In this document: in pieces, positions 1 through 28,831 of the stretch
How positions within the stretch are numbered: the stretch's first letter is position 1
Layout: the number at the start of each line of letters is the position of its first letter
Source of the DNA: an uncultured Bacteroidota bacterium
GTDB taxonomy: Bacteria; Bacteroidota; Bacteroidia; Bacteroidales; P3
Reading direction: 5' to 3'
Length of the DNA: 38,080 nucleotides
Assembly: GCA_902796265.1 (NCBI GenBank)
Contig: CADBOG010000046.1
Span: forward strand, 1 to 38,080
Notes under the pieces: model-generated
Told to the model about the DNA's origin: nothing
Databases searched by the model: none
Seen by the model: only the letters and a program-made list of their open reading frames with translations
Program-made: the position numbers and the translations under genes

Positions 1-3000
1 TACCCCTACTACCGTCATTCGGGTTCTTATATTATTATCCGTGAAAGCGAACTTGGCGGCAATCCACGTCTTATCGACACCATTGGATTCCAGTTTAATG
101 GCACCACCCGCGACCTCAAGCTCACCATAACGATGGGGCTTCTCGACCACAACTACCTGAACTGGAGCGACACAGGCAACATCACCAACCGTCAGGAAGT
201 ATTCCACGGCATGGCACATCTTACACTCTCCACCGAAGACAACCCATGGAGCTATATAGCTTTCGACAGAGGATTTCAGTACTACGGTTCTGGCTCCATC
301 GTCATAAAGGTTGTTGACTCCTCTGATATCAGCTACGGCGGTGCCAACTTCCGGGCATTCTATATGTATGGAGCAACCAGCCTCTATTTCTACGGAGACG
401 ACTATTCATACTTCAGTACCTCCTACTACCGTCCATACACGTACCTCGGCGGCGGTTGCGACATGGACCCCTGTCCAAAGCCCACCATAGAGGTCGATAG
501 CGTCAGCGACCACGAAGCCACTTTCATTTGCTCACGTATGGAAGGCACACCACAGATGGAATACAAACTGCAGAGCGAGACAGCATTCACCACAGCCACC
601 GACGTCAGCTTCACTGGCAGCAGCTGCACATTGTCAGGCCTGACGCCCAACCGAGCTTACGATGTGCGCCTGCGCCGCATCTGTCCGTGGGGCGACACAT
701 CCGAATGGGTCAACGTTCAGCTAAGCACACTACCTTACCATTATAATCATGTATATGTAAAAGCCGACGCCATTGGCAACAACGACGGCTCTACCTGGAG
801 CAATGCCTTCACAAGTCTGGGCGAAGCACTCGCCGCAGCGGTGTCCTCTGGTCAATACTATGGCGAGACACCTGACGTATGGGTTGCCGCAGGTGTTTAT
901 TACGGTGACACCTCTGACGGGACAGGAGCAGCCTTTGTCATACAAAACGGCGTGAACGTATATGGCGGATTCTCAGGCAACGAGAGTGCCTCCACCGACA
1001 TCAACAGCCGCGATATAGAGGCCAATGCCACCATACTTGACGGACAGAATGTGCAGCGAGTGCTGCAGCAGAACTATCATTTTGCAGAGGGAAGTAGAAC
1101 CATTTGGGACGGCTTCGTTTTGCGTAACGGAAAAAACAACTACAGCGGAGGTGGCGCCTACATCAATCGAGGCACCACACTGCGAAACATACAGATTTCC
1201 AACTGTACCGTAGACAATGGCTGGGGTGAAGGTGCAGCCCTCTATACCAACAATGGTGTCGTGGAGAACTGCACCATCACCAACTGTGGCAGAACAGCCG
1301 TAAGCATGACAGTCATACATTCTCTATACTCCAAACTAACCGATGTCAAGGTGTTCGGCATCACTACATGCAAGGTGATAGACTCCGACTATGACACCAT
1401 CCGCCGTTGTACATTCAGCAACAATCAAATCAACGGAACTGTCGCCGAATTCAACAAGAGCTATATTGCAAACACTCTTTTCAGCAACAATACCGGCAAT
1501 GTTGTAGTCCTTTATCTAAACCAATGCGAGGTAGTCAACTGCGACATTGTAGGCAACCAAAGCACATCAAACTACGGTCTGATTGACGGATGGGATAACA
1601 CGATAAAGAACAGCATCGTGTGGGGCAACGTTCCGAATAGGTTCAACAGTAGCCTCATCGACTCGATGCTCTTCTGCGCCATCGAGGGTGGCTTCGCAGG
1701 CGAAGGCAACATCAGGCTTGAGAGCGACAACTTAGGCAACAATGAGACACTGAGTTATCCCTACTTTGTATCGCCAGAAGATGGAGACTACCGATTGGCG
1801 TTGGGCTCGGCATGTGTCGATGCGGGTGCTGTCTCCACCGACAGCGACGGCAGCGACATTACAGGCAATGCACGCATCTATGGCGACGGCATAGACATCG
1901 GCTGCTACGAGTACCGTGGCGAAAGCTTCTGTCTGAAACCCGTGGACGTCAAGGTCGAACGAGCCTCTACAGCTGCGGTTGTGTCGTGGGTAACCCCCCA
2001 AGGAGTGCCAGGAGTCGATGTTGAATACAGAGCTATTGACGAAAACAGTTGGACGGTAATACAGAATATCACTGGCAGTCATTTCTTGATTGACGGACTG
2101 AGCACGGGGCAGACCTACGAGGTGCGTCTGCGCAGCCATTGTAGCTCTACGGGGACGCAGAGCGCTACCATGCAGGTCAGGTTCGTCACAGGATGCACCC
2201 AGTTTGGCTATGCCCTAGTTGGCGACTCCACGATTCAGTCGAACATCTCAATACTGCCAATCACAACCAGTTATCCCTACAGCTACTCACAGCAGATATA
2301 CCTTGCATCGGAACTGACAACGGACGATGCGATTATAGCCATCCAGTTCCAGCAAATCCAAGGCCACTCAAGCCGACATTTGAAAGTATATCTGGGCCAT
2401 ACCAGCCTTAGTTCCTTCGGTTCCGGAAGCGATGCCATTGCCGCCTCGGCACTTACTGAGGTCTTCGATGGCACCGTCATGTTGACCGAGGAAGAGTCGT
2501 GGATCACCATCCCATTGACAACGCCATTCTCTTACAACAACAGCGACAACTTGGTATTGGCCGTGATTGATACCAGTGGCTCCAGCCTAGGATACAACTA
2601 TTTCGGCTCACACTACGCCAACGACTATATGGCTCTGTACCATTACAATTATAATCCTTACTATGTCGATTCGTCATACGATTTCTCTATCTATTACATG
2701 CGCAACAATGTGAGGTTCATCACCGCATGTGAAGAGAGTGCCTGTCCCACGCCACTGCTCACAGTTCAAGACGTCAAATACAACTCCGCTTCTGTGGTGT
2801 GCCAGACTGGCGTAGGCCAAAGGGTTCAGCTGCAATACAAACAATCCGGCGACGAAAGCTACACGACACTGACAGCAACCCAGGAGCAGACCCTCAGTGG
2901 CTTGCGACAGAACACAACATACCATGTGAGAGCACGCACCATCTGCCTGGGCGACACTTCAAACTGGAACATAGTCACCTTCACGACACCGGCACGCCAG

Positions 3001-6000
3001 CAAAACATCTTCTATGTCTCCACCACCGGCAGCACCTCCGCCAACGCCTCTTCGTGGCATGATGCGACGAGCGACCTGAACTGGGCAATGGCAACTGCCA
3101 AGGCCGCTCACGACCAGTATGGCCTCAGAGCACAGGTGTGGGTGGCTCAAGGCATATATCATGGCAATACCAATGATGACAATGCCTTCTACCTACAGCC
3201 TTACGTCGATGTTTATGGCAGTTTCGTGGGGAATGAGTCATCACTCAACCAACGGACTCTCTCTCAAAGAACTATTTTGGATGGACAAAACCAAAGACGC
3301 GTGCTCTACCAAGCCAATGACATGCCATACGGCGACAGCGTCATCTGGGACGGATTCACCATCACAGGAGGCAATACCCAATTCTCATCCACTGGTTCCG
3401 ATTATGGAGGAGGAGCATACCTTAGAAGTGGCGTCGTCTTGCAGAACAGCACCATCAAAAACTGCTTGGCATACTATGGCGGCGGCCTATATATGAGCAG
3501 CTCGACGTTGCGCAACTGCATTGTTATGGATGACAGTGCCTATTATCATGGTGGGTTGTATGCCTATTCTTGCGACATAACAAACTGCCTTATTGCCAAC
3601 AACAGCGCCAAATACGAAGGCGGTGCCTACTTTTACGACTGCAATGTGGTCAACAGCTCAGTTGTCGCCAACCGCTCAACAAACAGCAATTCCGCCAACA
3701 ACCTCAATAGCAGTCACATTTACAACACCATCTTCTGGGGCAACAAAACCAAAGGCAGCCTTGACGAGTCTTACCAAGCATCTAACGGGTTCTTCTACAA
3801 CTGCGCTTTCGAGAGCAACTGGCCTGAGAACCACAACGAACTGAGCAACTGTATACTACTCAACAGCCGAAACAGCGGTAATTACCACAGTCCTCTCTTC
3901 GTGCAACCCTCATACGAGGCCGGTGCCGGTTATGGTGAGGGGGGCGACTGGGGTCTGCAGCAAGGCTCTATTCTTATCGACAAAGGCGACAATTCTCAAC
4001 TCTCAACTCCTAACTCCCAACTCTCAATTGACCTTGCCGGCAACAGCCGTATGCAAGGAGGCTCTGTCGACATGGGATGCTATGAAAGCAGTTTCACTGG
4101 ATTTGCACTGCCACAATATCCTGACGGCAAAGTATTTGTCGTCGAGGGCGGCGCCGGAACTCAGGACGGAACATCCTGGGTCAATGCCATGAGCGACATC
4201 AACGATGCCGTGATGATGGCAGCCTCGAAGGGGGGCTTGGACGTTTGGGTTGCTCAGGGAAGATACTATGGCAACACGGAAGAGGACAATGCCTTCACGA
4301 TGATTGAAAATGTGAATGTCTATGGCGGATTTGAGGGTAATGAGAGTTCGTTGGCTGCAAGGCCGACTACAGCGGCGGAGACTATAATCCGTGGCAACGT
4401 TCACCAAGGGGCAGTCTCTGTTTTGGACGGATTGAACAGCAGACGTGTCCTCAGGCAGAATGGTGACTTCGACACACTGACCATCTGGGACGGCCTTACT
4501 CTGCAGAACGGATTCGTAACCAACAATAAAGGCGCCGCCGCCGCCCTCAAAGGCGGTAGCCAACTACGGAACTGCGTGATGCAATACAACATTGTGTATA
4601 GCACAACAAATGCCTCTATCTATGGCGGTGCCATTTTTGTTGATGGCCCATACTCCTCCAACCAGCAAGACACATCCCTGTGGGGATGCGTAGTGCGCAA
4701 CAACTATTCGCAGCACCAGAACGAGGGAGCACGTGCCAAAGTCAACGGTTCTGCCATTTATGCAAAATACACCAATATTGTCAACTGTCTGATCCACGAC
4801 AACAACGGATACAATGGTGCCGTCTATCTCAGCTATTACACAAATATGTACAACTGCGTCGTATCCAACAATCAAGCCCACGACGTCGCAGGAGTATACA
4901 TCAGTAGCAGTTCATCTATCAATAGCAGTGTTATAGCCCAGAACGTCTCGCAGAACTCAATAGGCGGCGTCAATAGCGGTTCCAATTCCAATAGCATCAA
5001 CAACAGCATTATCTGGGGCAACAAACGGAACTATGTAGCCAGCAATATCAGCAACTACATAACTGTCAACAACTGCGCCATCGAAGGCGGTTTTGAGGGC
5101 AGCACCAATGTCATCAACCTCGCCGGTACGAACGACGGCAGCAATGGCAGTCTGAACTACGTCCGTTTCATCGACCCCACTCAGAACAATTACAGACTGC
5201 ATCCCGCCTCGCATTGTCTTGACCAAGGCGACACCTCCTACGGTTACTTGCCCTACGACATGGACGGCAACAACCGCATCAACGGCCTCGCCATGGACCT
5301 CGGAGCCTACGAGAGCAACGAGAGTACCAGCTGTCCGTCGCCTCTGAACCTGCGCTGCACCTCTGTCAGCGGCACCAGTGCCACCTTTGCCTGGACTCCT
5401 GTAGGCAGCGAGGGCCAGTGGCAGTTCACGATAATGGGGACCAGCAACAGCCTGGACAGCACCATTACCGTCAATGACACCATGATTACCGTAGGCAACC
5501 TCGGGTTGAACCAGACCTATACAGCCCATGTACGTGCCAACTGTGGAGGCGACTACAGCATCCATTCGCCGCAGGTCACCATCACGACCCTCTGCGACTC
5601 CACCGGACTGACGCCCCTCTCAGCCTTCACGGCACTATATCCTGCCGACAGCACCATCGTGATGAGTGCCAGTGCCGACTTCTCGTGGAATGCCATTCCC
5701 GAGGCGACATCCTACGACCTCTACATCTGGCAGGACGGCTATTCAGAGCCTACAACGCCCACTGCCACCGGAATCACCCTTGCCGGCGTCAACAATTGCG
5801 TCATCCCCAACTGGCAGCGTGGCAAATTCTACCATTGGAAGGTGGTAGCATGGAACCAGTGCATCAAGCGCAGCAGTCAGGTGCAGACCTTCGAGGCCAA
5901 CCCGTTGCCCGACCTGCATGTCACCGACGTCACCTTCTCGCAGCCCATGGCCGGTCAGCCGCTTACCGTAACCTATACAGTGAAGAACGACGGCCGTGGA

Positions 6001-9000
6001 GCCACTCCCGCAGGAGCCTCATGGAATGAAAACATCTGGATAGTCTCCGATGTCGACGTGCGTTATTATGACTCGCACGACAACCAAGGCAAGATACCCG
6101 GCTACGAGAACCTACAGAGCCTCGGACCCGGTGAGAGCTACACCCGAAGCGTGACCATAGTTGTCCCGCAGCAGCTTGTAGGCAGCTACTATATTTTCGT
6201 CTTCGCCGACCAGAGCGACGCATACAGCATTAATTTCGACGAGGCCGGAGGCATCACCCCCGACCCATACACGCCCAGTGTAACGGGAGTCCCCTACCAC
6301 TACCTGAAAGGCCTCACCCACCTGCACGGCGACATAGATGAGGTCGAAGACGGAGACAACTTCTTCTACAAGTCGTTCTACATCCTGCCGCCCCCCGCAC
6401 CCGACCTGAGAGTCACCCATATCGGTCACCCCACGCAGACCTTCTCGAACAGCATGATCACCGTCAACTGGACTGTCACCAATATGGGCGACGCTGCTGC
6501 CGGAGGAAGAGTGGTGTGGTATGACGACATCTACATCCAAATGGGCGACGAACTGAATATGGCGGAGGCACACAGACTGGCCAGCGTGAAGCACTGGGCT
6601 GGCATGGACTCCACTTATCAGGTTTGCGTTCACTGTTCAAGTGACGGAAGTCCCTGCAACCCATGCCACATGGTACACACGCCGCGAGGCACTGCCCTCC
6701 AGATGGATAGTTCCTATTCTGCTTCAGCGACCGTACACATACCCATAAGCTTTGCAGGCAACTACAACATCTTCGTGGTCACCGATGCCCACGACACCGT
6801 CTTCGAGAGCCTCAACGAGTACAACAACGCAGCGGTTTCCGAGCAGTATCTCAACGTCATCATGAGGCCCCTCTCCGACCTGCAGGTAAGCAATGTGTCG
6901 ATGCCGCTCCATGTGTCGCCCCGCCAGTTGGTTAAGGCCTGTTTCACAGTCACCAACATTGGAGCCGGCGCCACAGAGTTGAACAATTGGACTGACAGGC
7001 TCTACCTGTCGCCCACACCTACGTTAAACAGCACAGCCATCCAAGTTGCCGAACATCAACATTCCGGTGTGTTAGATATCGATGAAAGCTACAGTGACAC
7101 GATATCCTTCTACATCCCCAAAGATAAGAGTGGCAACTACTACCTGATAGTCAGGACAGACGCCAACAATCAAATCTATGAAGGCGAGAACGAACTGAAC
7201 AATAGAGCAGCCAGTGCGTCGCCTACGCAGATACAGCTGCCAGACCTTGTGGTCACGCAGGTCATCGTACCCGAGACGCAGAATCTGGGTGAAGATATCA
7301 CCGTCAGTGCCTGGATCAAGAATGTTGGTTCCGGAACAGCCTACTTCACCAATCCCCTCAAGACCGCAATCTTCCACAGCAACGTAATCGCGATTGTCAG
7401 CAGTTCCACAACGATTTATCCTGGCGACAGCATCATGGTCAGCAGCACCGTCAAGCAAGGATGTCCCAACAGTGCCATGGCCCAGGTAGGCGTCCACACC
7501 AACTATTATGGAACCGGCAACGACACCATCCTCGAGTCAAACGGCTTAGGCGGCAACATCAAGACAGCCACCTATTCCGTCATCCTCCCCGACCTTGTGG
7601 CACAGAGCATCGTCGTGGCAGAGGACACTGCCTGGAGTGGCAACACCGTCAACCTGACGATGAGCATCAGCAATATCGGCACCACGACGCTTGATGACAC
7701 CGTCTGGTACAAAGTGTACATTTCGAACAATCCCACCAGCTATACCGCCACCGCTGCCAACAGGGTACTCAACGGAGGAGTAATCACCCGTCTGACGCCC
7801 GACAGCAGCATTACGGTGACAGGCACTGCCACATTGCCCAACGGCATCGAAGGCAACTACTACCTGCACTTCGTCGTCGACGAGATTGGAAGGGTATGTG
7901 ACGGAGACCGCAGCAACAACGAGTCCCACTCGGGAGTCTTCCATGTGAACCTCACGCCGTGGCCTGACCTGGTGGTGAGCCAGATAGAGGTGCCCGACAG
8001 CCTTATGGTGGGAGCCGCAGCGCAGTTCAACATCACTATTGCCAACAACGGCATAGCCCCCGCCACAGGCTCGATGACGACGAGAGTGTTCATGTCGATC
8101 CTGCCCACATACGGTGGCAACTCAATGAAGCAGGTCGCATCGCACCAGAGTTCAATAGACATCCCCATCAACGACGAGACCAACGTCGTCGTCTCGGGAT
8201 GGATACCCTCTACCGTTCCCGCCAGCCACTATTATTTCTATGCCGTGGTTGACTACAACGACAACATCTACGAACATACCGGCGAGGACAACAACGTCAC
8301 CAGGAGTGCCAGCCAGAGCTTCGTCCAGATCTACCCCCTCGACTTGGTGGTGGACACCATTATTGGTCCCGACACCCTGAACTGGGGACAGACTGCACGC
8401 TATGTCGTACGCATCCGCAACAATTCCAATGTGATAACCTCGATGTCGCAGTGGCAGGACCGCGTTTACTTCAACGCCACGGGTGACGTCAGCGGCAATG
8501 TGTTCCAGGGCATCACCCATCGTAACGGCTTGGGCGCTGGCGAGAGCTACACCGACACCTTCTATGTCACCATGCCTTACGGAGCCAACGGTGAAGTGAT
8601 ACTCAACGCCATCTGCGACTACAACCGCATCAACCCTGATATCGCTCCTCTCAACAACCAGAAGAGCCTGAGCGTCAAAGTGAAGAGCATCCCCACCCCA
8701 GACTTGCAAATCAGCGATGTGGAGATACTCGACAGCATCATCAGCGGCCAGCCCTTCCGTCTGGCCTATATGGTTACCAACATCAGCAGCACACTGATTG
8801 ACAGCCTGTCGTGGAACGACAAGATAACCCTCTCGGATGTCGACGGCTACACTAGCTGGAGCCGACAGCTCAACCTGCATCCGCAGGTGCGATACCTCGA
8901 CTCGGGCTGGTACTATCTCGACACCGTGATAGTAACCATCGCCGTTCCCAATCAAGGTTCGCGTTTCCTGCTGGTACATGCCAACGCTCAGAACACATTC

Positions 9001-10350
9001 TATGAGAGCGACCAGTCCAACAATGTCATCTCCGTGCCCGTGAACATCACCCTGCCGCCTCCTGGCGACCTGACGGTGGGCAATATCCTACATGCCGACA
9101 CCATTATGAGCGGCGTAGATGTCACTGTCAGCTGGAGCGTGAAGAACATCGGCAACAACAGCATCAGCGGTTCGCGTCTGAATTCGCTGGTCTATCTGTC
9201 GCGCGACAACATCTTCAGCAGCAACGACAAACTGTTACGTACCGTCAACTCGACCTCTGTCAACCTTGCTCCTGGTGACTCGCTGGTGCAGCAAGCCACG
9301 ATAAGGATCAGCGGCGAGGGCGAAGGCAACCGTTTCTTCATCGTCAAAACCGACGTGAGGAACGCCTTCTATGAGGATGACGAGAACAACAACACCGTTG
9401 CCGCCTCCACACCGACCTTCGTGAAACTGCGTGTGCTGCCTTTCAACACCCCAGTGACAGACACTCTTTATAGCACTCTGGCATTGAACTACAAACTCTC
9501 CGTAGACACAAACATCAACCAGACCGTCCGCATATACCTTGAAGATGGCGACTCACTGGCCGGTGCCGTGAACAACTTCTACGTACTTCACAACAATATC
9601 GGCAATGGCCTGAACAACACCTACTCCACCGCCGAACAATACTCCGCCAACCCCGAACTCTACATTCCTTCCACACGTCCTGGCTACTATGGCATCACCC
9701 TTGAGGGCTCCAGACCGGACCTCCATCCACAAATAGTGAAGATCCGTGCCGACATACTGCCCTTCGAGCTGAGGAGCATCAACCCCTCATACGGCGGCAA
9801 CGACGGCAAGGTGACCGTAGAGTTGAACGGCTCACGTTTCCGTCCCGACATGGAGGTGTGGATGGAGAATGGCGGTGACACGCTAAGACCTGAATATGTC
9901 ATTTTCGAGAGCTTCTACAAAGCCTACGCCCGCTTCGACCTTAACGGCGTCGACACCGGCGACTACAATATAGGAATCTACAACTACTGTGAAGGCGAGT
10001 CCGCATTGGTCAGCGCATTCCATGTCCTGCCTCCGACACCCGACGGTCTGGCACACAACCTCATCTTCCCCAACTCGCCGCGACCGAACCGCACCATCGC
10101 CATGGTGCTTGAGTACGGCAACATGGGCAACACCGACATAGAGAATGTGGTGCTGGAAATTGAGTCGGTGGCAGGTTCCTTCATATCGTTGACGACAGAA
10201 GGCCTTAGCGAACGATCAACAACGGTAACCGTACCGCTGAACATCCCCGGTGAGCCAGAAGGCTTGTTACGTCCCGGCTGCCGCGGCACTGTTACTATCT
10301 ATGCCTACACAGCCGGCTCGCTGGTCTTTGTGACAAGGAGTGTGGAATAA
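1..10350 (+). CDS. Giant extracellular beta-helix / Fn3-like / CARDB repeat protein (5' end outside window)
   Basis: The frame is open from base 1, so the true start lies upstream; 3449 residues are visible. Modules by base position: a beta-sandwich remnant (1-460); Fn3-like domains near 463-735, 1924-2190, 2743-2997, 5329-5595 and 5596-5907; a jelly-roll-like module (2190-2740) resembling the N-terminal remnant; three parallel beta-helix modules (736-5325); nine CARDB-type modules (5908-9438); a TIG/IPT-like domain near 9760-10040; and a final domain rich in R-P-x-R and G-N-T-D-I motifs. The last domains resemble modules I recall from giant proteins of cyanobacteria and planctomycetes. There is no T9SS sorting domain at the C-terminus, so anchoring may depend on partners. 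It heads an operon of secreted proteins, with the next gene 65 bp downstream. Role inferred: surface adhesin or scaffold. The domain types are fairly sure, the function is not. Confidence 0.85.
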   Translation, partial: YPYYRHSGSYIIIRESELGGNPRLIDTIGFQFNGTTRDLKLTITMGLLDHNYLNWSDTGNITNRQEVFHGMAHLTLSTEDNPWSYIAFDRGFQYYGSGSIVIKVVDSSDISYGGANFRAFYMYGATSLYFYGDDYSYFSTSYYRPYTYLGGGCDMDPCPKPTIEVDSVSDHEATFICSRMEGTPQMEYKLQSETAFTTATDVSFTGSSCTLSGLTPNRAYDVRLRRICPWGDTSEWVNVQLSTLPYHYNHVYVKADAIGNNDGSTWSNAFTSLGEALAAAVSSGQYYGETPDVWVAAGVYYGDTSDGTGAAFVIQNGVNVYGGFSGNESASTDINSRDIEANATILDGQNVQRVLQQNYHFAEGSRTIWDGFVLRNGKNNYSGGGAYINRGTTLRNIQISNCTVDNGWGEGAALYTNNGVVENCTITNCGRTAVSMTVIHSLYSKLTDVKVFGITTCKVIDSDYDTIRRCTFSNNQINGTVAEFNKSYIANTLFSNNTGNVVVLYLNQCEVVNCDIVGNQSTSNYGLIDGWDNTIKNSIVWGNVPNRFNSSLIDSMLFCAIEGGFAGEGNIRLESDNLGNNETLSYPYFVSPEDGDYRLALGSACVDAGAVSTDSDGSDITGNARIYGDGIDIGCYEYRGESFCLKPVDVKVERASTAAVVSWVTPQGVPGVDVEYRAIDENSWTVIQNITGSHFLIDGLSTGQTYEVRLRSHCSSTGTQSATMQVRFVTGCTQFGYALVGDSTIQSNISILPITTSYPYSYSQQIYLASELTTDDAIIAIQFQQIQGHSSRHLKVYLGHTSLSSFGSGSDAIAASALTEVFDGTVMLTEEESWITIPLTTPFSYNNSDNLVLAVIDTSGSSLGYNYFGSHYANDYMALYHYNYNPYYVDSSYDFSIYYMRNNVRFITACEESACPTPLLTVQDVKYNSASVVCQTGVGQRVQLQYKQSGDESYTTLTATQEQTLSGLRQNTTYHVRARTICLGDTSNWNIVTFTTPARQQNIFYVSTTGSTSANASSWHDATSDLNWAMATAKAAHDQYGLRAQVWVAQGIYHGNTNDDNAFYLQPYVDVYGSFVGNESSLNQRTLSQRTILDGQNQRRVLYQANDMPYGDSVIWDGFTITGGNTQFSSTGSDYGGGAYLRSGVVLQNSTIKNCLAYYGGGLYMSSSTLRNCIVMDDSAYYHGGLYAYSCDITNCLIANNSAKYEGGAYFYDCNVVNSSVVANRSTNSNSANNLNSSHIYNTIFWGNKTKGSLDESYQASNGFFYNCAFESNWPENHNELSNCILLNSRNSGNYHSPLFVQPSYEAGAGYGEGGDWGLQQGSILIDKGDNSQLSTPNSQLSIDLAGNSRMQGGSVDMGCYESSFTGFALPQYPDGKVFVVEGGAGTQDGTSWVNAMSDINDAVMMAASKGGLDVWVAQGRYYGNTEEDNAFTMIENVNVYGGFEGNESSLAARPTTAAETIIRGNVHQGAVSVLDGLNSRRVLRQNGDFDTLTIWDGLTLQNGFVTNNKGAAAALKGGSQLRNCVMQYNIVYSTTNASIYGGAIFVDGPYSSNQQDTSLWGCVVRNNYSQHQNEGARAKVNGSAIYAKYTNIVNCLIHDNNGYNGAVYLSYYTNMYNCVVSNNQAHDVAGVYISSSSSINSSVIAQNVSQNSIGGVNSGSNSNSINNSIIWGNKRNYVASNISNYITVNNCAIEGGFEGSTNVINLAGTNDGSNGSLNYVRFIDPTQNNYRLHPASHCLDQGDTSYGYLPYDMDGNNRINGLAMDLGAYESNESTSCPSPLNLRCTSVSGTSATFAWTPVGSEGQWQFTIMGTSNSLDSTITVNDTMITVGNLGLNQTYTAHVRANCGGDYSIHSPQVTITTLCDSTGLTPLSAFTALYPADSTIVMSASADFSWNAIPEATSYDLYIWQDGYSEPTTPTATGITLAGVNNCVIPNWQRGKFYHWKVVAWNQCIKRSSQVQTFEANPLPDLHVTDVTFSQPMAGQPLTVTYTVKNDGRGATPAGASWNENIWIVSDVDVRYYDSHDNQGKIPGYENLQSLGPGESYTRSVTIVVPQQLVGSYYIFVFADQSDAYSINFDEAGGITPDPYTPSVTGVPYHYLKGLTHLHGDIDEVEDGDNFFYKSFYILPPPAPDLRVTHIGHPTQTFSNSMITVNWTVTNMGDAAAGGRVVWYDDIYIQMGDELNMAEAHRLASVKHWAGMDSTYQVCVHCSSDGSPCNPCHMVHTPRGTALQMDSSYSASATVHIPISFAGNYNIFVVTDAHDTVFESLNEYNNAAVSEQYLNVIMRPLSDLQVSNVSMPLHVSPRQLVKACFTVTNIGAGATELNNWTDRLYLSPTPTLNSTAIQVAEHQHSGVLDIDESYSDTISFYIPKDKSGNYYLIVRTDANNQIYEGENELNNRAASASPTQIQLPDLVVTQVIVPETQNLGEDITVSAWIKNVGSGTAYFTNPLKTAIFHSNVIAIVSSSTTIYPGDSIMVSSTVKQGCPNSAMAQVGVHTNYYGTGNDTILESNGLGGNIKTATYSVILPDLVAQSIVVAEDTAWSGNTVNLTMSISNIGTTTLDDTVWYKVYISNNPTSYTATAANRVLNGGVITRLTPDSSITVTGTATLPNGIEGNYYLHFVVDEIGRVCDGDRSNNESHSGVFHVNLTPWPDLVVSQIEVPDSLMVGAAAQFNITIANNGIAPATGSMTTRVFMSILPTYGGNSMKQVASHQSSIDIPINDETNVVVSGWIPSTVPASHYYFYAVVDYNDNIYEHTGEDNNVTRSASQSFVQIYPLDLVVDTIIGPDTLNWGQTARYVVRIRNNSNVITSMSQWQDRVYFNATGDVSGNVFQGITHRNGLGAGESYTDTFYVTMPYGANGEVILNAICDYNRINPDIAPLNNQKSLSVKVKSIPTPDLQISDVEILDSIISGQPFRLAYMVTNISSTLIDSLSWNDKITLSDVDGYTSWSRQLNLHPQVRYLDSGWYYLDTVIVTIAVPNQGSRFLLVHANAQNTFYESDQSNNVISVPVNITLPPPGDLTVGNILHADTIMSGVDVTVSWSVKNIGNNSISGSRLNSLVYLSRDNIFSSNDKLLRTVNSTSVNLAPGDSLVQQATIRISGEGEGNRFFIVKTDVRNAFYEDDENNNTVAASTPTFVKLRVLPFNTPVTDTLYSTLALNYKLSVDTNINQTVRIYLEDGDSLAGAVNNFYVLHNNIGNGLNNTYSTAEQYSANPELYIPSTRPGYYGITLEGSRPDLHPQIVKIRADILPFELRSINPSYGGNDGKVTVELNGSRFRPDMEVWMENGGDTLRPEYVIFESFYKAYARFDLNGVDTGDYNIGIYNYCEGESALVSAFHVLPPTPDGLAHNLIFPNSPRPNRTIAMVLEYGNMGNTDIENVVLEIESVAGSFISLTTEGLSERSTTVTVPLNIPGEPEGLLRPGCRGTVTIYAYTAGSLVFVTRSVE
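736..5325 (+). repeat. Three homologous parallel beta-helix modules within the giant protein
   Basis: Three copies (about 736-1920, 2998-4115 and 4120-5325) share the same order of motifs: an opening V-Y-V/F-V with D-G-S/T-S/T-W, then V-W-V-A-x-G, Y-Y-G-x-T, V-Y-G-G/S-F-x-G-N-E, I-L-D-G-Q/L-N and R-R/Q-V-L, then a series of short N-C-x-I/V turns typical of a right-handed beta-helix, and a closing D-x-G-C/A-Y-E. This matches pectin-lyase-fold (DUF1565-like) repeats. Each of the first and third is followed by an Fn3-like domain; the second runs straight into the third. Confidence 0.75.
3994..4028 (+). repeat. Five-copy 7-bp repeat inside the coding region
   Basis: Five heptamers follow each other: TCTCAAC, TCTCAAC, TCCTAAC, TCCCAAC, TCTCAAT. 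They encode N-S-Q-L-S-T-P-N-S-Q-L-S-I between G-D and D-L-A-G-N near the end of the second beta-helix module. The matching positions of modules 1 and 3 have a shorter, unrelated linker, so this looks like an insertion that kept the frame. The same TCTCAA/TTTTCAA type of heptamer occurs between genes at 28804-28831. Confidence 0.8.
5908..9438 (+). repeat. Array of nine CARDB-type modules
   Basis: Each module opens with P/S/L/G-D-L-x-V/I and contains V-x-N-x-G/S, a run like Y-L-S or I-Y-I-S, and a closing Y-E/D-x-D-E-x-N-N. Starts are near 5908, 6400, 6874, 7240, 7588, 7963, 8338, 8698 and 9064, i.e. roughly 115-165 residues each. CARDB (cell adhesion related domain found in bacteria) is an Ig-like fold in bacterial surface proteins. 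The copies are diverged at DNA level, unlike the young repeats in the adhesin at 13117-17184. Confidence 0.75.
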
Positions 10351-10395
10351 TCGGAGTACTCGGAATACTCAGATTACTCAGAATAATCAGAATAA
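10351..10395 (+). repeat. 9-bp tandem repeats between the giant gene and the next gene
   Basis: Five nonamers run directly from the stop codon: TCGGAGTAC, TCGGAATAC, TCAGATTAC, TCAGAATAA, TCAGAATAA. The last nine coding bases including the stop (GTGGAATAA) look like a sixth, degenerate unit. The array fills most of the 65-bp gap before the start at 10416. The core TCnGAATAA recurs in the leader at 13080-13115. Confidence 0.8.
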
Positions 10396-10415
10396 TAAAA
10401 AAACCTTATACTGCC

Positions 10416-11642
10416 ATGAAAAAATCACTCAAAATACTTATTGCCGCTGCAATGGTTCTCTGCTTCCAGTTCTCTGCCCTCAGTTCGGCGAGGGCACAGT
10501 TCGCCGGCGAGGACAAGAAGGTCGCCCGCGAGCCAGGAAACACGCAGAAGGTTAGCATCGGCACCCCAGACGCAGCCAACGATGTCTGCTATATGTGGAC
10601 CGGTCCGCATATTGATGGCAATGCCAACCAAGCCGTTGTCACCGTCAATCCCCATGACACGCTGGAGACCTATATGGTTAAGCGAATCTCGAAGAACGGC
10701 ATCGAAGAAGACGAGGTGCAAGTGCGTGTGGAGGACAGCATAGCCATAGTGTGGGTGAAAGCGAAATATAAGTGTTACAACCATGGAGACAACATATCAC
10801 CAAGTCAGTTTGAGATAGAGACCGAACCCGCAGGGTATGAGAGCCTGGTCACCGTTTCTCCCACCACGGCGACGAACAGTGCCGGGCTGGGAATAGAGAA
10901 CAACTGTCCACTCACCTTCACGCTGAACCATAATGGGCACACATCGACAAAGACGCTCACCACCACAGTATATAACAGCGATTTGGTTTCGCCCTTAGAC
11001 CTCATGGGGAACTCGATTTCCACCATCTATATGATGGTCAAGAACATGAAGACTTTCCAGGAGATCTGGGACAATCTTGAAAGCGTTGCCAACATTGTCA
11101 ATTACCTGACTGAGGCTTCGCCCTGTGGCTGGAAGAATCCAAAACCCCAGGACAATGTCGAATGGGTTAAGGTCACCCCCAAGATGCTTTGCTGTGGTCA
11201 CGTGCCAGCTTACGCGTTGCAGATACAGTTTGCCAAGCTATCTTACGGCAACTCGTTCGGGTGTCGCTTTCCTTTCTCCGGCATTCCATACGTTGCTTCA
11301 GCAGACATAGTGTTCAATCTGTCTGCCGAGATATTTGCAGGGCCCGTCACCGGAATAATATCGACAAACGATTCCTGTGGACAGGTATGCATTCCCGTAG
11401 GTGTCACCCTGGCAGTGAACGGAGGCGTTGGCGTGTCGGTAGGTGGTGGCAAGATACTTGCTGCAGACTTGCTGCTGCAAGGAGCCACAACAGCGCAGGC
11501 ACAATGGTGCCCCATTGGTGCGAATAACAGCCTTAGTGTTGGCATCACCTTCTCCGTTGTTGGTTCTGTGACTGCCTTAGGCATGATTGAACACACCATA
11601 GAATACCCATTAGCGACATACTCTATGTCAGTCGATTTATAG
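10416..11642 (+). CDS. Secreted protein with PKD-like N-terminal domain, unknown function
   Basis: 408 residues. A signal peptide (about residues 1-27) ends A-R-A before Gln. Residues about 30-110 look like a PKD-like Ig fold: C-Y-M-W-T-G-P, a central V-V-T-V-N-P and Y-M-V-K-R-I-S. The second half is Cys-rich (C-C-G-H around residue 250, C-G-Q-V-C near 325) and then Gly- and Val-rich with alternating polar and apolar residues, which suggests beta-sheet. No T9SS sorting domain is visible. It lies 65 bp after the giant gene and 62 bp before the TSP3-repeat gene on the same strand, so it is probably co-transcribed. Its signal peptide is strikingly like those of the next two genes. I do not recognise the C-terminal half and assign no function beyond a likely part of the surface assembly. 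Confidence 0.85.
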   Translation: MKKSLKILIAAAMVLCFQFSALSSARAQFAGEDKKVAREPGNTQKVSIGTPDAANDVCYMWTGPHIDGNANQAVVTVNPHDTLETYMVKRISKNGIEEDEVQVRVEDSIAIVWVKAKYKCYNHGDNISPSQFEIETEPAGYESLVTVSPTTATNSAGLGIENNCPLTFTLNHNGHTSTKTLTTTVYNSDLVSPLDLMGNSISTIYMMVKNMKTFQEIWDNLESVANIVNYLTEASPCGWKNPKPQDNVEWVKVTPKMLCCGHVPAYALQIQFAKLSYGNSFGCRFPFSGIPYVASADIVFNLSAEIFAGPVTGIISTNDSCGQVCIPVGVTLAVNGGVGVSVGGGKILAADLLLQGATTAQAQWCPIGANNSLSVGITFSVVGSVTALGMIEHTIEYPLATYSMSVDL

Positions 11643-11704
11643 TTTTTACTGATAATGAGCGAGGTATATTCTTCAACCTTTAACCTTTACCAACTATATA
11701 GGCT

Positions 11705-13075
11705 ATGAAAATAACAATCAAAATCTTGATCGCTGCCGCGATAATCATCAATACACAATTATCATTTTTCAATTCGGCACACGCACAGACGCATCGTTTC
11801 CCGCTGTATAGCGAACAAAATCATGCCGTGGTACTTGATTTGGCTGGCGACACCAACACCATTTTGTTGCATGATGGGACACACACGCTGTGCAACAATG
11901 TGGTGACATACAGTTTTGAGGGTTGCATACCGACGAGCTACACAATAGCCTTGACAGGTGGCAGCCAGAATGCCAGCACCACCAACACGCCGCCGGCGTT
12001 GCTGTGCCGCATGATGCAGGCCTATCAAAATGCCAGTATTACGGAGATAACTTCATTGTATCGTCCTCAAGACGCCACAAGAATCAATCAATTATTGAGT
12101 GCCGACAGCACACGTCAGCAGTTCCTCGCCACCGTCAGCGAGATAGACAGCATGGAGTTCCTGATGAGCTACAGCTACAATGGCGTATTCACTGTAGTGA
12201 TGACACGTCTCCATTTCGACACGGTCAGCGTTCTATCGCCCTACATGATGACACAGGTTGGCGGCGAGTGGAAATTTGTCTCCGACAGCCTTGGCGGCAA
12301 GATGGCGAACAATTTCGCTATCTTCCTCAACAAGCACCAGCCCTCGCAGCTGAGTCCTGGCGGCGACTATGACGGCGACGGTGTGCTCGACCCCCAAGAC
12401 AACTGTCCCTGCAACGCCAACGCCAACCAAGCCGACAGTGACCATGACGGCATTGGCGACGCCTGCGACAACTGCCCCCTGCACCGCAACCCCTTGCAGG
12501 AAGATTCAGACAACGACGGCGTGGGCGATGCTTGCGACAACTGCTGGACACGCTATAATCCCGACCAGACAGACAGCGACGGCGATCATGTCGGCGACAG
12601 CTGCGACAACTGCCCGATGGTTGTCAACCCACGCCAGTATGACTTCGACTTCGACAGCATCGGCGACGAGTGTGACCCCGACATAGACGGCGACGGCATA
12701 GCCAACGAACAGGACAGCGACCGCGACGGCGACCGCGTGGCTGACAGCATCGACAACTGCCCGATACACTACAATCCCTCGCAAGCCGACAGCGACGGCG
12801 ATGGCATAGGCGACGCCTGCGACAACTGTCCCCTGAAGGACAATCCCAACCAAGAAGACTATGACGGAGACGGCATCGGTGACCTCTGCGATGAAGACAG
12901 CGACGGAGACGGTGTGCCCGACGAGATAGACAACTGTCCGAGTATCCCCAACGCAAACCAAGATGACATGGACTGCGACGGCAAGGGTGACGCCTGCGAT
13001 GACGACATCGACGGCGACGCAATCCCCAACGAGCAGGACAACAAACCAGCAATATTCAATCCCAACCAGGATTGA
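11705..13075 (+). CDS. Secreted thrombospondin type 3 repeat protein
   Basis: 456 residues. The signal peptide ends A-H-A before Gln (near residue 28). Residues about 29-220 form an unrecognised domain. From about residue 221 to the end there are thrombospondin type 3 repeats: acidic D-x-D-x-D-G-x-G/x-D loops with seven D-N-C motifs (one D-N-C-W instead of D-N-C-P). Such repeats bind Ca2+ and act as rigid linkers in surface proteins, often ahead of a membrane or sorting domain. Here the chain simply stops after N-P-N-Q-D with no sorting domain, although TGA is followed by AT-rich repeat DNA rather than more repeat coding. The leader has heptads TTCAACC, TTTAACC, TTTACCA (11672-11692). It sits 41 bp upstream of the adhesin gene in the same operon. 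Confidence 0.9.
12365..13072 (+). repeat. Thrombospondin type 3 repeat region
   Basis: The region encodes about 236 residues of Asp-rich repeats with D-x-D-x-D-G cores and D-N-C-P/W motifs spaced roughly 30-40 residues apart. GAC and GGC codons dominate, so the DNA is GC-rich compared with the flanking gene ends. Confidence 0.85.
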
Positions 13076-13079
13076 AAGA

Positions 13080-13115
13080 GATTAATAATCCGAATAATCT
13101 GAATAATCCTAATAA
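13080..13115 (+). repeat. 9-bp tandem repeats in the leader of the adhesin gene
   Basis: Four nonamers, GATTAATAA, TCCGAATAA, TCTGAATAA, TCCTAATAA, end one base before the ATG at 13117. Read as coding they would give an N-N-P-rich N-terminus ahead of the signal peptide, which is why the upstream ATG at 13072 (overlapping the previous stop) is not chosen. The core is the same as in the array at 10351-10395. Confidence 0.8.
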
Positions 13116-13116
13116 A

Positions 13117-16100
13117 ATGAAAAGGACTGTCAAAATATTTATTGTTATTGGATTAATCTTCAACATCCAACTATCGTCCCTCAATTCGGCTTTGGCACAG
13201 ATAGGCTGCAAGATGACAAAAAAGGAGTCTTGCAAACCTGGCAAGGACGGTGAAGCGAAGATTACCGGCATGACCAACTCTATGATTTCGATGTGTAGCA
13301 TAGAGTGGGTCGGACCCGACGGACAGAAACTCGTGGGCATCAATCCCATAGGAATGAAAGCCGGAGCCTGGAGTGTTACCGTCAAGGCAACCCCCTGTAA
13401 CAAAATCATCTATCAAGATGTCTGCATTATCGAAAAAGAGAACGCCTGCAAGATAGGTGCCGGCATCTCTGTGACGAGTCACGAGGTGCCTTGCAACGTG
13501 CAACCATCAGCGACACTCACTGCCTACCCCATCGGAGGCACACCACCCTACACCTATACGTGGAAAACCATGACCGTGTCGGGCAGCGGCACATACGGAG
13601 TCACCATCACCGACTCTAACGGCTTTGTGGGCAGCGCCAAAGTGAGTGTCAGCCTGAAGATGACGAAATGTCCCGAAGACCCCAACGAGATTGACGGTCC
13701 TATCGGATATGGCGACGAGCACTTGGTGAGCACCAACGAGAAGATGCGCTACACGATACTCTACGAGAACTCACCCGAATTCGCCTCCGCTCCGGCGTCT
13801 CTGGTGAACATCACCTACCCCATCCCTCCCGAGCAGAACATCAACTCCGTACGCCTCTCCGACTTCGGCTTCGGCAGCTTTGTCTTCAGCGTGCCATCTA
13901 ACACCACGGCTTACACACAGCGGCTTGATGTCAGCGACTCGTTGGGCGTTTGGGTTGATGTCACCGCCGGCATCGACATGGCCAACAACCAAGTGTTTTG
14001 GAACCTACAGAGCGTAGACCCGGCCACCGGCTTTGAGCCTGCCAGTGCCGACCTCGGATTCCTCCTTATCAACGACAGCCTGCACCATGGCGAGGGTTAT
14101 GTAAGCTTCTCTATAGCGCCCAAGAACAGTGTGACCAGCGGCGACACCGTAGGCGCCGAAGCAACAATCATCTTCAACGAGAATACCGCCATAGCCACCA
14201 ATGTGTGGACCAACAAGTTCGATGCTGTAGCGCCCACTTCTACCCTTCATGCCAGCATCGAGGCTGACGACACGATGGCATGCAACTTCACCTTTTCAGC
14301 CAACGATGACCTGTCGGGAGTCGACAACGTAGAGCTTCTGGTCTCTCTTAACGGTGACGCCTACAACTCAATAGGATATTTCGCGGTAACCGACACCGCA
14401 CATTATGCTCTCGAAGACGGATATGTTTACCGATTCATCTCGCGTGCCACCGACAATGTCGGCAACCAGGAACCGTTGAAAAGCCGCCCAGACACCATCA
14501 TCAACAACAACACCGCCCCAGTTGATATACTGCTCTCCAACAACGGCTTTGAAGAGAATGCTGGAAACGGTGTCCTCATCGGAACCCTTACCTCCATCGA
14601 CAACGACATCACCAAACCATTCGTCTACGAACTCGTCACTGGCGAGGGCGACGATGACAACCTTTCTTTTTACATTGAAGGCAACGGTCTCTACACCGGT
14701 TCATCATACGCCTGCACCGGCAATTTCGACTACACGGTACGCATCCGTACCACCGACATCACAGGACTTTCGTTCGAGAAGGCCTTTGAGTTGTTGGCAA
14801 CTCAGCAAAACTTCCCCTATGTCAAGTCGAGCAACGAAAGCATCTGCCAGGGCAGTGCCTACGTATTCGGCAACCGTAATCTTGTGACTGCCGGCACATA
14901 CACCGACTCACTTACAACAGTGCGCGGATGCGACAGCATCATCACCGTGAACCTGGCCGTGCATCCCACATCGCAACACACGGAAACACAGGTTGCCTGC
15001 GAGAAGCAGAGCTTCAGCTGGGCAGAGCATGGCCTGACCATCGACACCCTTGAGGCTGGGCATTACTACTACCATGACACGATGTACACTCAGATGGGTT
15101 GCGACAGCACCTTCACGCTTGTGCTCAACGTCAACGCTACCAGTACGAGCACTGATGTTCAGACAGCGTGCGACATCTACACCTGGCATGGTGGCACATA
15201 TACAGCAAGTGGAGAATTTGCATACCTGACAACGAATGCGGCAGGGTGCGACTCAGTGGTAACACTGAACCTGACTGTGCGCTACAGCAACACGGGAGAC
15301 ACCACTGCTACGGCATGCGACAATTTCAGCTGGTGGAACACCAATTACACGAATAGCACGAATAACGCCACGCATGTTTTGAGTAATGCTGCGGGATGCG
15401 ACTCAGTGGTGACGCTGAATTTGACTGTGAACCATAGCAGTTCGAGTAATGAGGCTATTACGGCTTGCGACAGCTATATTTGGCACGGGACGACATACAA
15501 CGCATCGAACAATACTGCCACCTTTGTCGGCACGAATGCTGTTGGCTGCGACTCAGTGGTGACGCTGAATTTGACTGTGAACTACAGCAACAGCAGTGTT
15601 GACGTTCAGAATGTCTGCGACAGCTATACATGGCATGGAAACAGCTACACTGCTTCTACCAGTACACCGACTTACATTGAACAAAACGCAGCGGGGTGCG
15701 ACTCGGTAGTGACGCTTAACCTGACGGTGCGCTACAGCAACACAGGAGACACCACCGCTACGGCATGCGACAATTTCAACTGGTGGAACATAAATTACAC
15801 CAACAGCACGAATGAGGCCACACATGTGTTGAGTAATGCAGCAGGTTGTGACTCGGTAGTGACGCTGAATCTAACCATAAACAACAGCAGTTCGAGTAAT
15901 GAGGTGCTAACGGCTTGCGACAGCTATATTTGGCATGGAACGACATACAACGCATCGAATAACACTGCCACCTTTGTCGGCACCAACGCTGTTGGCTGCG
16001 ACTCCGTTGTGACGCTCAATTTGACTGTGAACTACAGCAACAGCGGGGTTGAGGTGTTGACGGCCTGCGACAGCTATACTTGGCACGGGACAAATTACAC

Positions 16101-17184
16101 TGCATCGAACAACACTGCCACCTTTGTCGGCACGAACGCTGTGGGGTGCGACTCGGTGACAACGCTGAATCTGACCATTAACTACAGCAACAGCGGTGTG
16201 GATGTTCAGGATGTATGCGACAGCTACACTTGGCACGGGACAACCTATACGGCTTCAACCAATACTCCGACTTATGTTGAACAGAATGCGGCGGGTTGCG
16301 ACTCGGTTGTGACACTAAATCTGACTGTGCGTTACAGCACTTCTGGCGACACTGCTGCGGTGGCTTGCGATAGCTACACATGGCATGATAACACATACAC
16401 CACAAGCGGTACGTACATTTACCAAACAACCAACACCGTGGGTTGCGACTCGGTAGTGACGCTGAATCTGACAATAAACCACAGCACTATGGCTGACACT
16501 GCGGCTGAGGCGTGCGACAGTTACACCTGGCACGGAAACACCTACACCGCAAGTGGAACCTATATGCACCAGACAACCAACGCTGTGGGGTGCGACTCGG
16601 TGTTGACACTGAATCTGACAGTGAACTACAGTAACAGCGGTATTGATGTGCAGACAGCTTGCGACGAATTTGTTTGGATTGACGGGGTGACATACACTGT
16701 TGGCGGCGATGACATCGCCACATACACAACATCGAATGCCGCCGGGTGCGACTCTGTAGTGACGCTGAATTTGACGCTGAACCACAGTGTCACAGTGTAT
16801 GACTCGCTTAGCCTCACATCCAACGAGATTCCTTACGACTACCACGGCAACACCGTGAATGGGGCAGGCGACTTCACCTTTGACGGCACCACCGCCCAGG
16901 GCTGCGACAGCACTACGCTGCTGCACGTCGCTGTTACCGTGGTAGGGCTCGACGTTGCTGACCCGCTGGCAGAACTCAAGGTTTACCCCAACCCCACACA
17001 AGGCTCGCTGACCATCGAAGCCGAAGATGTGCTGTTGGTGGAGGTCTTCGACATCGCCGGACGCAAGGTGGCCACCTTCGAGGAAGTGAACACCTTTGAC
17101 ATCACGAGCCTTGCTACCGGTACATACACCCTGAAGATTCAGACCACGAGGGGAGAGACTGTTAGGAGGATAGTGAAGAAATAA
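13117..17184 (+). CDS. Repeat-rich T9SS-exported adhesin
   Basis: 1355 residues. The start at 13117 puts a normal signal peptide (ending A-L-A before Gln) at the N-terminus. Order: a Cys-containing PKD/SprB-like region (about 28-190); a module opening G-P-I-G-Y-G-D-E with Y-T-I-L-Y-E-N, F-G-F-G-S-F and V-D-V-T-A-G-I-D (about 190-370); an Ig-like module ending R-A-T-D-N-V-G-N (about 375-465); a cadherin-like module (about 470-560); then 49-52-residue repeats with A-C-D-S-Y-T-W-H-G and G-C-D-S-V-V-T-L-N-L-T (about 560-1270); and a T9SS type A sorting domain (V-Y-P-N-P near residue 1289 to the terminal R-R-I-V-K-K). It should cross the outer membrane through T9SS and stay on the surface. It is the last gene of the operon, and the only operon member visible here with a sorting domain. 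Adhesion is inferred from architecture. Confidence 0.92.
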   Translation: MKRTVKIFIVIGLIFNIQLSSLNSALAQIGCKMTKKESCKPGKDGEAKITGMTNSMISMCSIEWVGPDGQKLVGINPIGMKAGAWSVTVKATPCNKIIYQDVCIIEKENACKIGAGISVTSHEVPCNVQPSATLTAYPIGGTPPYTYTWKTMTVSGSGTYGVTITDSNGFVGSAKVSVSLKMTKCPEDPNEIDGPIGYGDEHLVSTNEKMRYTILYENSPEFASAPASLVNITYPIPPEQNINSVRLSDFGFGSFVFSVPSNTTAYTQRLDVSDSLGVWVDVTAGIDMANNQVFWNLQSVDPATGFEPASADLGFLLINDSLHHGEGYVSFSIAPKNSVTSGDTVGAEATIIFNENTAIATNVWTNKFDAVAPTSTLHASIEADDTMACNFTFSANDDLSGVDNVELLVSLNGDAYNSIGYFAVTDTAHYALEDGYVYRFISRATDNVGNQEPLKSRPDTIINNNTAPVDILLSNNGFEENAGNGVLIGTLTSIDNDITKPFVYELVTGEGDDDNLSFYIEGNGLYTGSSYACTGNFDYTVRIRTTDITGLSFEKAFELLATQQNFPYVKSSNESICQGSAYVFGNRNLVTAGTYTDSLTTVRGCDSIITVNLAVHPTSQHTETQVACEKQSFSWAEHGLTIDTLEAGHYYYHDTMYTQMGCDSTFTLVLNVNATSTSTDVQTACDIYTWHGGTYTASGEFAYLTTNAAGCDSVVTLNLTVRYSNTGDTTATACDNFSWWNTNYTNSTNNATHVLSNAAGCDSVVTLNLTVNHSSSSNEAITACDSYIWHGTTYNASNNTATFVGTNAVGCDSVVTLNLTVNYSNSSVDVQNVCDSYTWHGNSYTASTSTPTYIEQNAAGCDSVVTLNLTVRYSNTGDTTATACDNFNWWNINYTNSTNEATHVLSNAAGCDSVVTLNLTINNSSSSNEVLTACDSYIWHGTTYNASNNTATFVGTNAVGCDSVVTLNLTVNYSNSGVEVLTACDSYTWHGTNYTASNNTATFVGTNAVGCDSVTTLNLTINYSNSGVDVQDVCDSYTWHGTTYTASTNTPTYVEQNAAGCDSVVTLNLTVRYSTSGDTAAVACDSYTWHDNTYTTSGTYIYQTTNTVGCDSVVTLNLTINHSTMADTAAEACDSYTWHGNTYTASGTYMHQTTNAVGCDSVLTLNLTVNYSNSGIDVQTACDEFVWIDGVTYTVGGDDIATYTTSNAAGCDSVVTLNLTLNHSVTVYDSLSLTSNEIPYDYHGNTVNGAGDFTFDGTTAQGCDSTTLLHVAVTVVGLDVADPLAELKVYPNPTQGSLTIEAEDVLLVEVFDIAGRKVATFEEVNTFDITSLATGTYTLKIQTTRGETVRRIVKK
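15148..16794 (+). repeat. Eleven near-identical ~150-bp coding repeats with higher-order structure
   Basis: Units start at 15148, 15295, 15445, 15595, 15745, 15895, 16045, 16195, 16345, 16492 and 16639; most are exactly 150 bp. Each encodes C-D-x-Y/F-x-W and G-C-D-S-V-V-T-L-N-L. Two or three diverged units precede them and one follows. Units starting at 15295, 15445 and 15595 are matched in order by those at 15745, 15895 and 16195, with the extra unit at 16045 being a hybrid, so the array grew by copying three-unit blocks. Confidence 0.9.
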
Positions 17185-17219: not shown

Positions 17220-17255
17220 AAAAAGCGCCCTCTGGGAGACTGGGGGTGTTTTTTG
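17220..17255 (+). terminator. Probable intrinsic terminator of the surface-protein operon
   Basis: An A-rich left arm with GCGCCCTC pairs imperfectly (several G-U pairs) with TGGGGGTG, followed by six T. It lies 35 bp after the adhesin stop codon and before the next gene's start at 17280. Confidence 0.6.
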
Positions 17256-28636: not shown

Positions 28637-28831
28637 GTTTCAGGTTTCAAGTTTCAGGTTTCAGGTTTCAAGTTTCAGGGTACAAGGTCCAGTGGACCGC
28701 GTAGAGCTGATTTGAGCGTTGGATGTTATTGTTTCAGGTTTCAGGTTTCAAGTTTCAAGTTTCAAGTTTCAAGTTTCAGGTTTCAGGTTTCAAGTTTCAA
28801 GAATTTTCAATTTTCAATTTTCAATTTTCAA
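28637..28831. repeat. 7-bp repeat arrays (GTTTCAR and TTTTCAA) around a short palindrome
   Basis: Six GTTTCAR units run from 28637 to 28678 and ten more from 28731 to 28800, then four TTTTCAA units from 28804 to 28831. The seventh base alternates between G and A without a fixed pattern. The 52-bp spacer between the first two arrays contains the perfect inverted repeat GGTCC-AGT-GGACC at 28686-28698. The whole occupies most of the 230-bp gap between two genes of secreted proteins; no open reading frame or RNA gene is seen in it. These are direct repeats without unique spacers of CRISPR size. Confidence 0.92.

Follow-up and report, generated by a model that had tools for sequence, protein, structure and literature searches.

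A four-gene surface operon of an uncultured Bacteroidales bacterium as a putatively divided cargo carrier

The subject of this study is a four-gene operon for surface proteins in an uncultured Bacteroidota bacterium (Bacteroidales; P3). The whole stretch of DNA that was analysed, here called the window, comprises 38,080 nucleotides of contig CADBOG010000046.1 (assembly GCA_902796265.1). The source bin has 2.29 Mb in 152 contigs and is 82% complete. The first gene encodes a giant CARDB protein which ends in a module termed N, the last gene a protein with a module termed D, and the two genes between them occupy what we call the slot. We suggest that the four genes are an N-slot-D cargo-carrier unit which has probably been cut at the slot edges into separately Sec-exported subunits. 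That they make up a functional unit which stems from, or can be exchanged for, a single chain we regard as very likely. The first-pass annotation had taken the operon for a split giant protein. This idea stands insofar as the N and D ends are found on one chain elsewhere, but the two middle genes are not fixed parts, as the slot holds other cargo in relatives.

The operon and the partnership of N and D

The four genes lie on the plus strand at positions 1-10350, 10416-11642, 11705-13075 and 13072-17184, the last with an ATG at 13117. We mapped the following features (T9SS, type IX secretion system).

1..10350, plus strand: P0001, giant CARDB protein (PF07705, E = 5e-58); the contig end cuts its 5′ end; T9SS sorting domain not detected
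6874..7209, plus strand: top-scoring CARDB repeat of P0001 (residues 2292-2403), one of five CARDB stretches
9754..10314, plus strand: TIG-like domain and N module, the final module of P0001; N proper at about 10024-10347 (boundary of N proper and TIG label set by eye)
10344..10394, no strand: 9-bp tandem repeat array (AATAATCNG-like) at the first slot edge, from the repeat scan
10416..11642, plus strand: P2 (P0002), first slot protein, with signal peptide, PKD-like and Ig-like domains, a helical stretch and a long-stranded beta part
11705..13075, plus strand: P3 (P0003), second slot protein, with signal peptide, a domain of about 200 residues without Pfam match, and TSP3 repeats
13084..13121, no strand: 9-bp tandem repeat as at the first edge, here at the second slot edge, from the repeat scan
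13117..17184, plus strand: P0004, with signal peptide, PKD-like stretch (by eye), D module, repeats of about 150 bp and T9SS sorting domain
13669..14472, plus strand: D module in P0004, that is, DUF7619 and the next domain ending R-A-T-D-N-V-G-N
16981..17175, plus strand: Por_Secre_tail T9SS C-terminal sorting domain, the sole one detected on the four proteins
17229..17246, plus strand: weak terminator-like hairpin 3′ of P0004

P2, P3 and P0004 each open with a signal peptide, as judged by eye. For the N module Pfam yields no family. The D module of the window matches DUF7619 (Pfam E = 1.3e-11, profile positions 88-132 of 133), and a match to PF24595 is found in it as well as in all 23 single chains scanned. 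The three gaps within the operon hold no terminator-like site on the plus strand. The terminator evidence is weak, however, because eight such sites are seen in the region and 7.2 are expected from shuffled sequences.

A wide survey with the D alignment as query yielded 80 loci with named records. We then built a model of N from four seeds and refined it in five rounds. N lies upstream of D at 73 of the 80 loci, at 33 of them on another open reading frame (ORF) and at 40 on the same one, which bears out the statement of the first-pass annotation that N and D follow each other on one chain in other proteins. The titles of these one-chain records include Planctomycetota, Binatia and many Bacteroidota. 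The unrefined four-seed model already matches 57 of the 80 loci. As controls, neither 1650 reversed ORFs nor the 1933 minus-strand ORFs from the 80 loci gave a match to the N model, and none of its 82 matches lies downstream of D. We note that the 80 loci are not independent: L025 and L029 belong to one genome, likewise L032 and L048, and L089 and L090 are nearly identical; L024, L041, L053 and L086 are loci of family genomes and were counted once.

In relatives the four genes are indeed linked, as had been anticipated. The order N-P2-P3-D recurs at 14 other loci, ten from the wide survey and four from a sample of the order. Among the 101 genomes of the family, the source genome included, D is present in five and N in four. 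Genome G088 has the same four genes in the same order with aligned stretches of 54, 47, 64 and 66% identity. In G098 and G052 a giant ending in N is followed by an RHS protein and the D protein, and in G001, from a sister genus, N and D reside on one chain of 2412 amino acids with a terminal sorting domain.

We also searched 393 genomes of the order for N and D at E = 1e-8. D was found in 31 and N in 20 genomes, all 20 being among the 31 (by eye). Of 28 places with N, 27 are followed downstream by a D place that shares contig and strand (by eye), the sole exception being in G308. From the 39 D places outside the window we fetched 20, mostly the best-scoring ones. N is upstream in all 20 with the refined model, ten times on one ORF and ten times split, and four of the splits have the order N-P2-P3-D. 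Moreover, the pairwise identities of N and D are correlated, with r = 0.92 for 12 loci of the four-gene clade and r = 0.85 for nine RHS loci, and none of 2000 permutations reaches the observed value in either class. Shared descent explains part of this co-variation. Taken together, these comparisons indicate that N and D are near-constant partners.

Could this nevertheless be an ordinary operon with four independently secreted surface proteins that have common stalk domains, the adjacency of N and D being without mechanistic meaning? CARDB, TSP3 and T9SS-sorted repeats are all present here and are common surface modules, and a complex among the four products is so far a proposal. In our view this explanation is unlikely, as N and D share one chain at 40 of the 80 loci, not one of the 393 genomes has N without D, the breaks fall nearly always at the same edges (28 of 33 loci and ten of ten in the order sample), and locus L033, described below, points to a refusion.

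Where the chain is cut

Of the 33 loci whose N and D lie on separate ORFs, 28 show a clean gene break. Ten of these have the order N-P2-P3-D, 14 the order N-RHS-D, and the others are L056, L057, L059 and L102 (in L102 the contig end cuts N). In the 28 clean breaks the N gene ends 6-44 residues past N, in 27 of them at most 26 residues, and in the ten splits of the order sample 9-12 residues. In L064, L070, L084 and L087 the frames seem to be broken or to overlap, and these loci are outside the count of clean splits. A broken chain is nearly always interrupted directly behind N, and the forms with three or four genes have a second break ahead of D.

The bin to which the window belongs is in 152 contigs, and the four loci just mentioned do resemble damaged frames. 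The split might therefore be suspected to result from decay or from an assembly error in a single giant gene. We consider this extremely improbable, since every gene downstream has a start and a signal peptide of its own, the breaks repeat at 14 other four-gene and 14 three-gene RHS loci, and the middle genes are conserved. Such decay is already contradicted by the relatives.

At least 4647 amino acids make up the one chain of L033, which carries N, a PKD-like linker and D. In a tree of D modules (78 rows, quick method) it falls inside the four-gene clade (12 rows, support 99), and this position suggests that L033 arose by refusion. All 27 rows labelled as split lie together with single chains in one clade of 37 rows (support 100). 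On this tree the split state requires at least three changes; the number is a lower bound because 11 unclear rows, among them L054 and L059, were left out. In the same tree the units of two records titled Lachnoclostridium (L073) and Clostridium (L091) group with Muribaculaceae rows; misbinned contigs or transfer may account for their placement.

The slot edges of the window carry matched 9-bp repeats, as listed above. The 9-bp unit has one other such place in the genome, at C113:32726. Units of 7 bp are found at both slot edges of L031 (L031:6726-6766 and 9381-9426). Among the 24 loci compared, only the window and L031 have repeats at both edges; in L024 one of the edges carries an imperfect array, and the other split loci among the 24 have none. 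As an exchange signal the matched repeats are accordingly only a lead.

The slot and its cargo

The genes between N and D appear to fill an exchangeable slot, with cargo that differs among relatives. RHS repeats occupy the slot in the 14 three-gene loci, are fused to D in L056 and L102, and stand on one chain with N and D in L071, L074 and L082. A peptidase of the thermolysin type (M4) is fused to D in L057, L136 and L143, with matches above the Pfam cut-offs, and L141 resembles such a fusion by eye. L057 further has an alpha/beta hydrolase in its slot. The slot of L059 has a VWA7_N domain, with matches to Het-C and phospholipase C below the cut-offs, and that of L066 has CarboxypepD_reg repeats. 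In L138 and L139 we found a beta-rich protein of about 970 amino acids and an FN3 protein (by eye; in the one that was scanned, Pfam reports fn3). A Pfam scan of ten single-chain slots left seven without a match at E = 0.001.

In L140 the slot is fused to D (L140:7526-10020), and a Cys-His-Gly-Gly and a Cys-Cys stretch look caspase- or C25-like by eye; here Pfam reports SprB repeats only. Genome G193 has three units (L137, L142 and L143) with two slot types, P2/P3 twice and the M4-peptidase fusion once.

For 13 of the 14 three-gene RHS proteins we compared core and tail. The cores of L040, L043 and L044 are 91.5-93.6% identical and their tails have no BLAST similarity at E = 1e-3. L035 and L038 have cores of 93% identity and share only a tail piece of 55-63 residues (36%). 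Only one of ten tails scanned with Pfam, that of L043, gave a match above cut-off, an M23 peptidase. Lipase- or phospholipase-like motifs seen by eye in the tails of L046 and L044 have no Pfam support and were dropped. Variable tails on constant RHS cores are read here as a polymorphic-toxin signature. Between RHS and D, small ORFs are present in four of the 14 loci (L035:9176-9730, L037:9302-9721, L038:9170-9634 and L095:8845-9774). Pfam gives no match for those of L035 and L038 and a leucine-rich-repeat match below the cut-offs for that of L095. These ORFs could be immunity genes. Downstream of D, inspection by eye of the ORFs of 15 relatives and of the window gave no convincing immunity gene.

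The slot of the window holds P2 and P3 and has no RHS match. Naming the two proteins from sequence was unsuccessful: nothing convincing was found in Pfam or among PDB sequences, and the long-stranded C-terminal half of P2 is barely covered by the fold comparison. A kinship of P2 with the protein of about 970 amino acids from L138 and L139 was suggested by eye, and the P2 model gave no match to it at E<=1. The label adhesin, given to P0004 by the first-pass annotation, is unproven; close three-gene relatives look like toxin carriers.

The company of RHS proteins with hypervariable tails, of M23, M4 and hydrolase cargo and of the small ORFs following RHS in four of 14 loci makes it conceivable that P2 and P3 are an antagonistic effector pair and that the unit, in the manner of its RHS relatives, is a polymorphic toxin bound to the surface. 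We find this doubtful for the window. P2 and P3 match no toxin family in our scans, which a novel family could escape; P3 is conserved and without a hypervariable tail, the C-terminal part of P2 being less conserved; and the slot has no extra small gene. The different cargo of the relatives between the same two end pieces, likely toxins and proteases included, suggests a modular display device.

An exchange may have been caught at one chromosomal site. In two nearly identical genomes this site carries N-P2-P3-D (L034) or N-RHS-D (L044). Their DNA is 96-98% identical from a point within the D gene, past the D module, through the sorting end and for about 7.9 kb beyond, with one 0.9-kb insertion in L044 within the matching region. 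Upstream of this point only 248 bp match, at 83%. The D proteins are 91% identical over the C-terminal 395 residues and 46% over the D module; in the comparison of N/D pairs, D is 47% and N 30% identical. The first flanking gene is presumably recR. Genome G536 has this recR flank at 77-78% with no unit beside it; the one D place of this genome lies on a different contig. Most simply, the site is explained by a joint exchange of N, slot and D that left the sorting end in place.

For the window we inspected the corresponding flank in eight of 59 genomes of the genus, at the sites that adjoin the best relatives of the next gene. No match to N, RHS, P2, P3 or a sorting domain was found there in 2.4-12 kb each. 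Since these sites gave no match and D occurs in only five of the 101 family genomes, we regard the operon as accessory.

Directly 3′ of the operon and on the same strand an ORF of 150 amino acids with a signal peptide (by eye) is located at 17280-17732; other four-gene loci with downstream DNA have no counterpart by eye downstream of D. The window contains a further gene with a T9SS sorting domain at 22427-24139. Intergenic 7-bp arrays with GTTTCAG and GTTTCAA units lie at 28637-28831, the longer one with about 14 copies.

Export, assembly and meaning

P0004 is, as the first-pass annotation had stated, the only one of the four proteins with a T9SS sorting domain detected in Pfam and TIGR scans (Pfam E = 3.6e-12, TIGR04183 E = 1.8e-11). 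Together with the signal peptide (by eye) this is the pattern of T9SS type A cargo, and the genome has the translocon gene sprA (TIGR04189, 2336 bits). P0001, P2 and P3 gave no Por_Secre_tail match at E<=0.01. We searched the split loci with a model of the C-terminal sorting domain (CTD) built from eleven such domains. The N gene has no sorting domain in all 29 split loci (28 and the window), and neither have the 34 middle ORFs listed; the list comprises neither P2 of the window nor the RHS proteins of L051 and L095. The D protein has a sorting domain in 18 of 29 loci; six run off the contig and the matches in L051 and L059 are weak. In the splits of the order sample, ten of ten N genes lack the domain and eight of ten D proteins have it. 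In work on the T9SS of F. johnsoniae a fusion without sorting domain serves as control (PMC10994853). Because the N and middle genes have no sorting domain and D has one, we infer that giant and cargo would leave together with D.

N itself might be an alternative C-terminal export signal, so that the giant exits alone and the slot proteins take another route. In 28 of the 33 separate-ORF loci N is the final module, a position typical of sorting domains. It is, however, internal in 40 single chains and occurs in records of Planctomycetota and Binatia, phyla which are not known for a T9SS, and the slot proteins of the window are also without detected sorting domain. We therefore judge an export signal in N to be quite improbable.

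Single-chain N-D proteins from Prevotella-like, Bacteroidaceae and related bins end by eye in dockerin-like repeats and not in a T9SS domain (L073, L075, L077, L085, L088-L094, L096, L097, L099, L100 and L103). These ends may represent a different anchoring or assembly route of the N-D unit.

For the divided carrier we propose the following scheme. The giant CARDB protein would be a stalk ending in N, and P2 and P3 would be the cargo of this lineage. N, the slot proteins and D could bind one another non-covalently, probably in the periplasm. The complex could then be exported or anchored by the T9SS via the single sorting domain of the D protein, by which the N, slot and D subunits would reach the surface. 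The four products may physically assemble into one structure. That all four are exported together through one sorting domain we put forward tentatively. Equally tentative is the more general picture of a multi-subunit T9SS substrate, in which a giant stalk and exchangeable cargo, both without a CTD, would join one CTD-bearing subunit in a non-covalent complex with single-signal export or anchoring, N and D acting as docking ends for the swapping of cargo.

A covalent joint was considered as well. DUF7619 is described as an isopeptide domain (PMC12617251). The columns of its Lys-Asp-Asn triad were placed by alignment and the Lys and Asp columns counted. The window has Ile in the Lys column and Tyr in the Asp column. 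Lys and Asp are lost in the split D modules examined. No covalent joint by the DUF7619 route is therefore expected, and joining in trans via this isopeptide is unlikely.

Several observations weigh against the divided carrier. The loss of Lys and Asp just mentioned holds for 27 of 27 split D modules examined. N was not found at seven of the 80 loci (L045, L063, L067, L072, L078, L080 and L081); the upstream DNA is below 1.2 kb in four of them and measures 2.8 kb in L078, 3.4 kb in L063 and 9.2 kb in L067. Likewise 11 of the 31 D-bearing genomes of the order have no N match at E = 1e-8, although in four of the eleven a weaker N precedes D (L144, L147, L148 and L152). L054 looks intact, yet its N gene continues for 351 residues past N; it is outside the count of clean splits but is perhaps a genuine one that departs from the rule. 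Five of the 29 split D proteins gave no match to the CTD model (L028, which is partly masked, L037, L040, L057 and L095). P2 and P3 are without assigned function. The block difference between L034 and L044 is one case from two metagenome bins and may stem from bin chimerism; its far boundary is unseen because both contigs end near the giant gene. Finally, the AlphaFold model of a single-chain N-slot-D protein reaches a predicted template modelling score (pTM) of 0.62 with low confidence for most of the slot, so that a contact of N and D, and their role as packed plugs, stay conjectural. For D alone the model is confident.

Among known systems the TANFOR toxins of Bacteroidetes are similar in that signal-peptide toxins are encoded near T9SS-sorted proteins (PMC7073777). 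Its authors hypothesise that the T9SS exports these toxins and that those encoded separately may bind to the neighbouring TANFOR protein. Here, in contrast, the cargo lies between two fixed modules, N and D, and is not restricted to toxins. General scans of the window proteins gave no match by the name TANFOR; no TANFOR profile was scanned by name. Rhs polymorphic toxins (PMC3482391) resemble the three-gene relatives with their RHS core, hypervariable tails and small ORFs in four of 14 loci. The carrier differs, being a CARDB giant with a T9SS-sorted D protein, and the window has no RHS gene. Rhs toxins use known Rhs delivery systems which are other than a CARDB giant and D protein. The C-terminal domains of antigen I/II (2wza) and Gram-positive pilins (4hss) have only the fold class in common, with identities of 9% and 17%. 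The grappling hook protein GhpA of Aureispira (9fly) ties with generic PKD and Ig domains, and kinship is unsupported. The single-chain N-slot-D giants have N and D in the order of the window, on one polypeptide instead of separate ORFs. We found no description of the N-slot-D unit in the open-access literature, a scope that leaves aside preprints and most subscription papers. The exchangeable slot is a new point beyond the idea of a split giant.

The finding bears on the open question by what route Bacteroidota bring toxins and giant proteins without a CTD to the surface. This question is also raised in the TANFOR paper (PMC7073777). The unit exists in a fused form and as two, three or four genes, with a single sorting domain detected, and offers a test case with built-in controls. 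N and D can serve as sequence handles for finding new cargo, because anything encoded between them probably serves as an effector or for display. If the proposal is true, N and D as docking ends would let lineages swap a toxin, a protease or other cargo.

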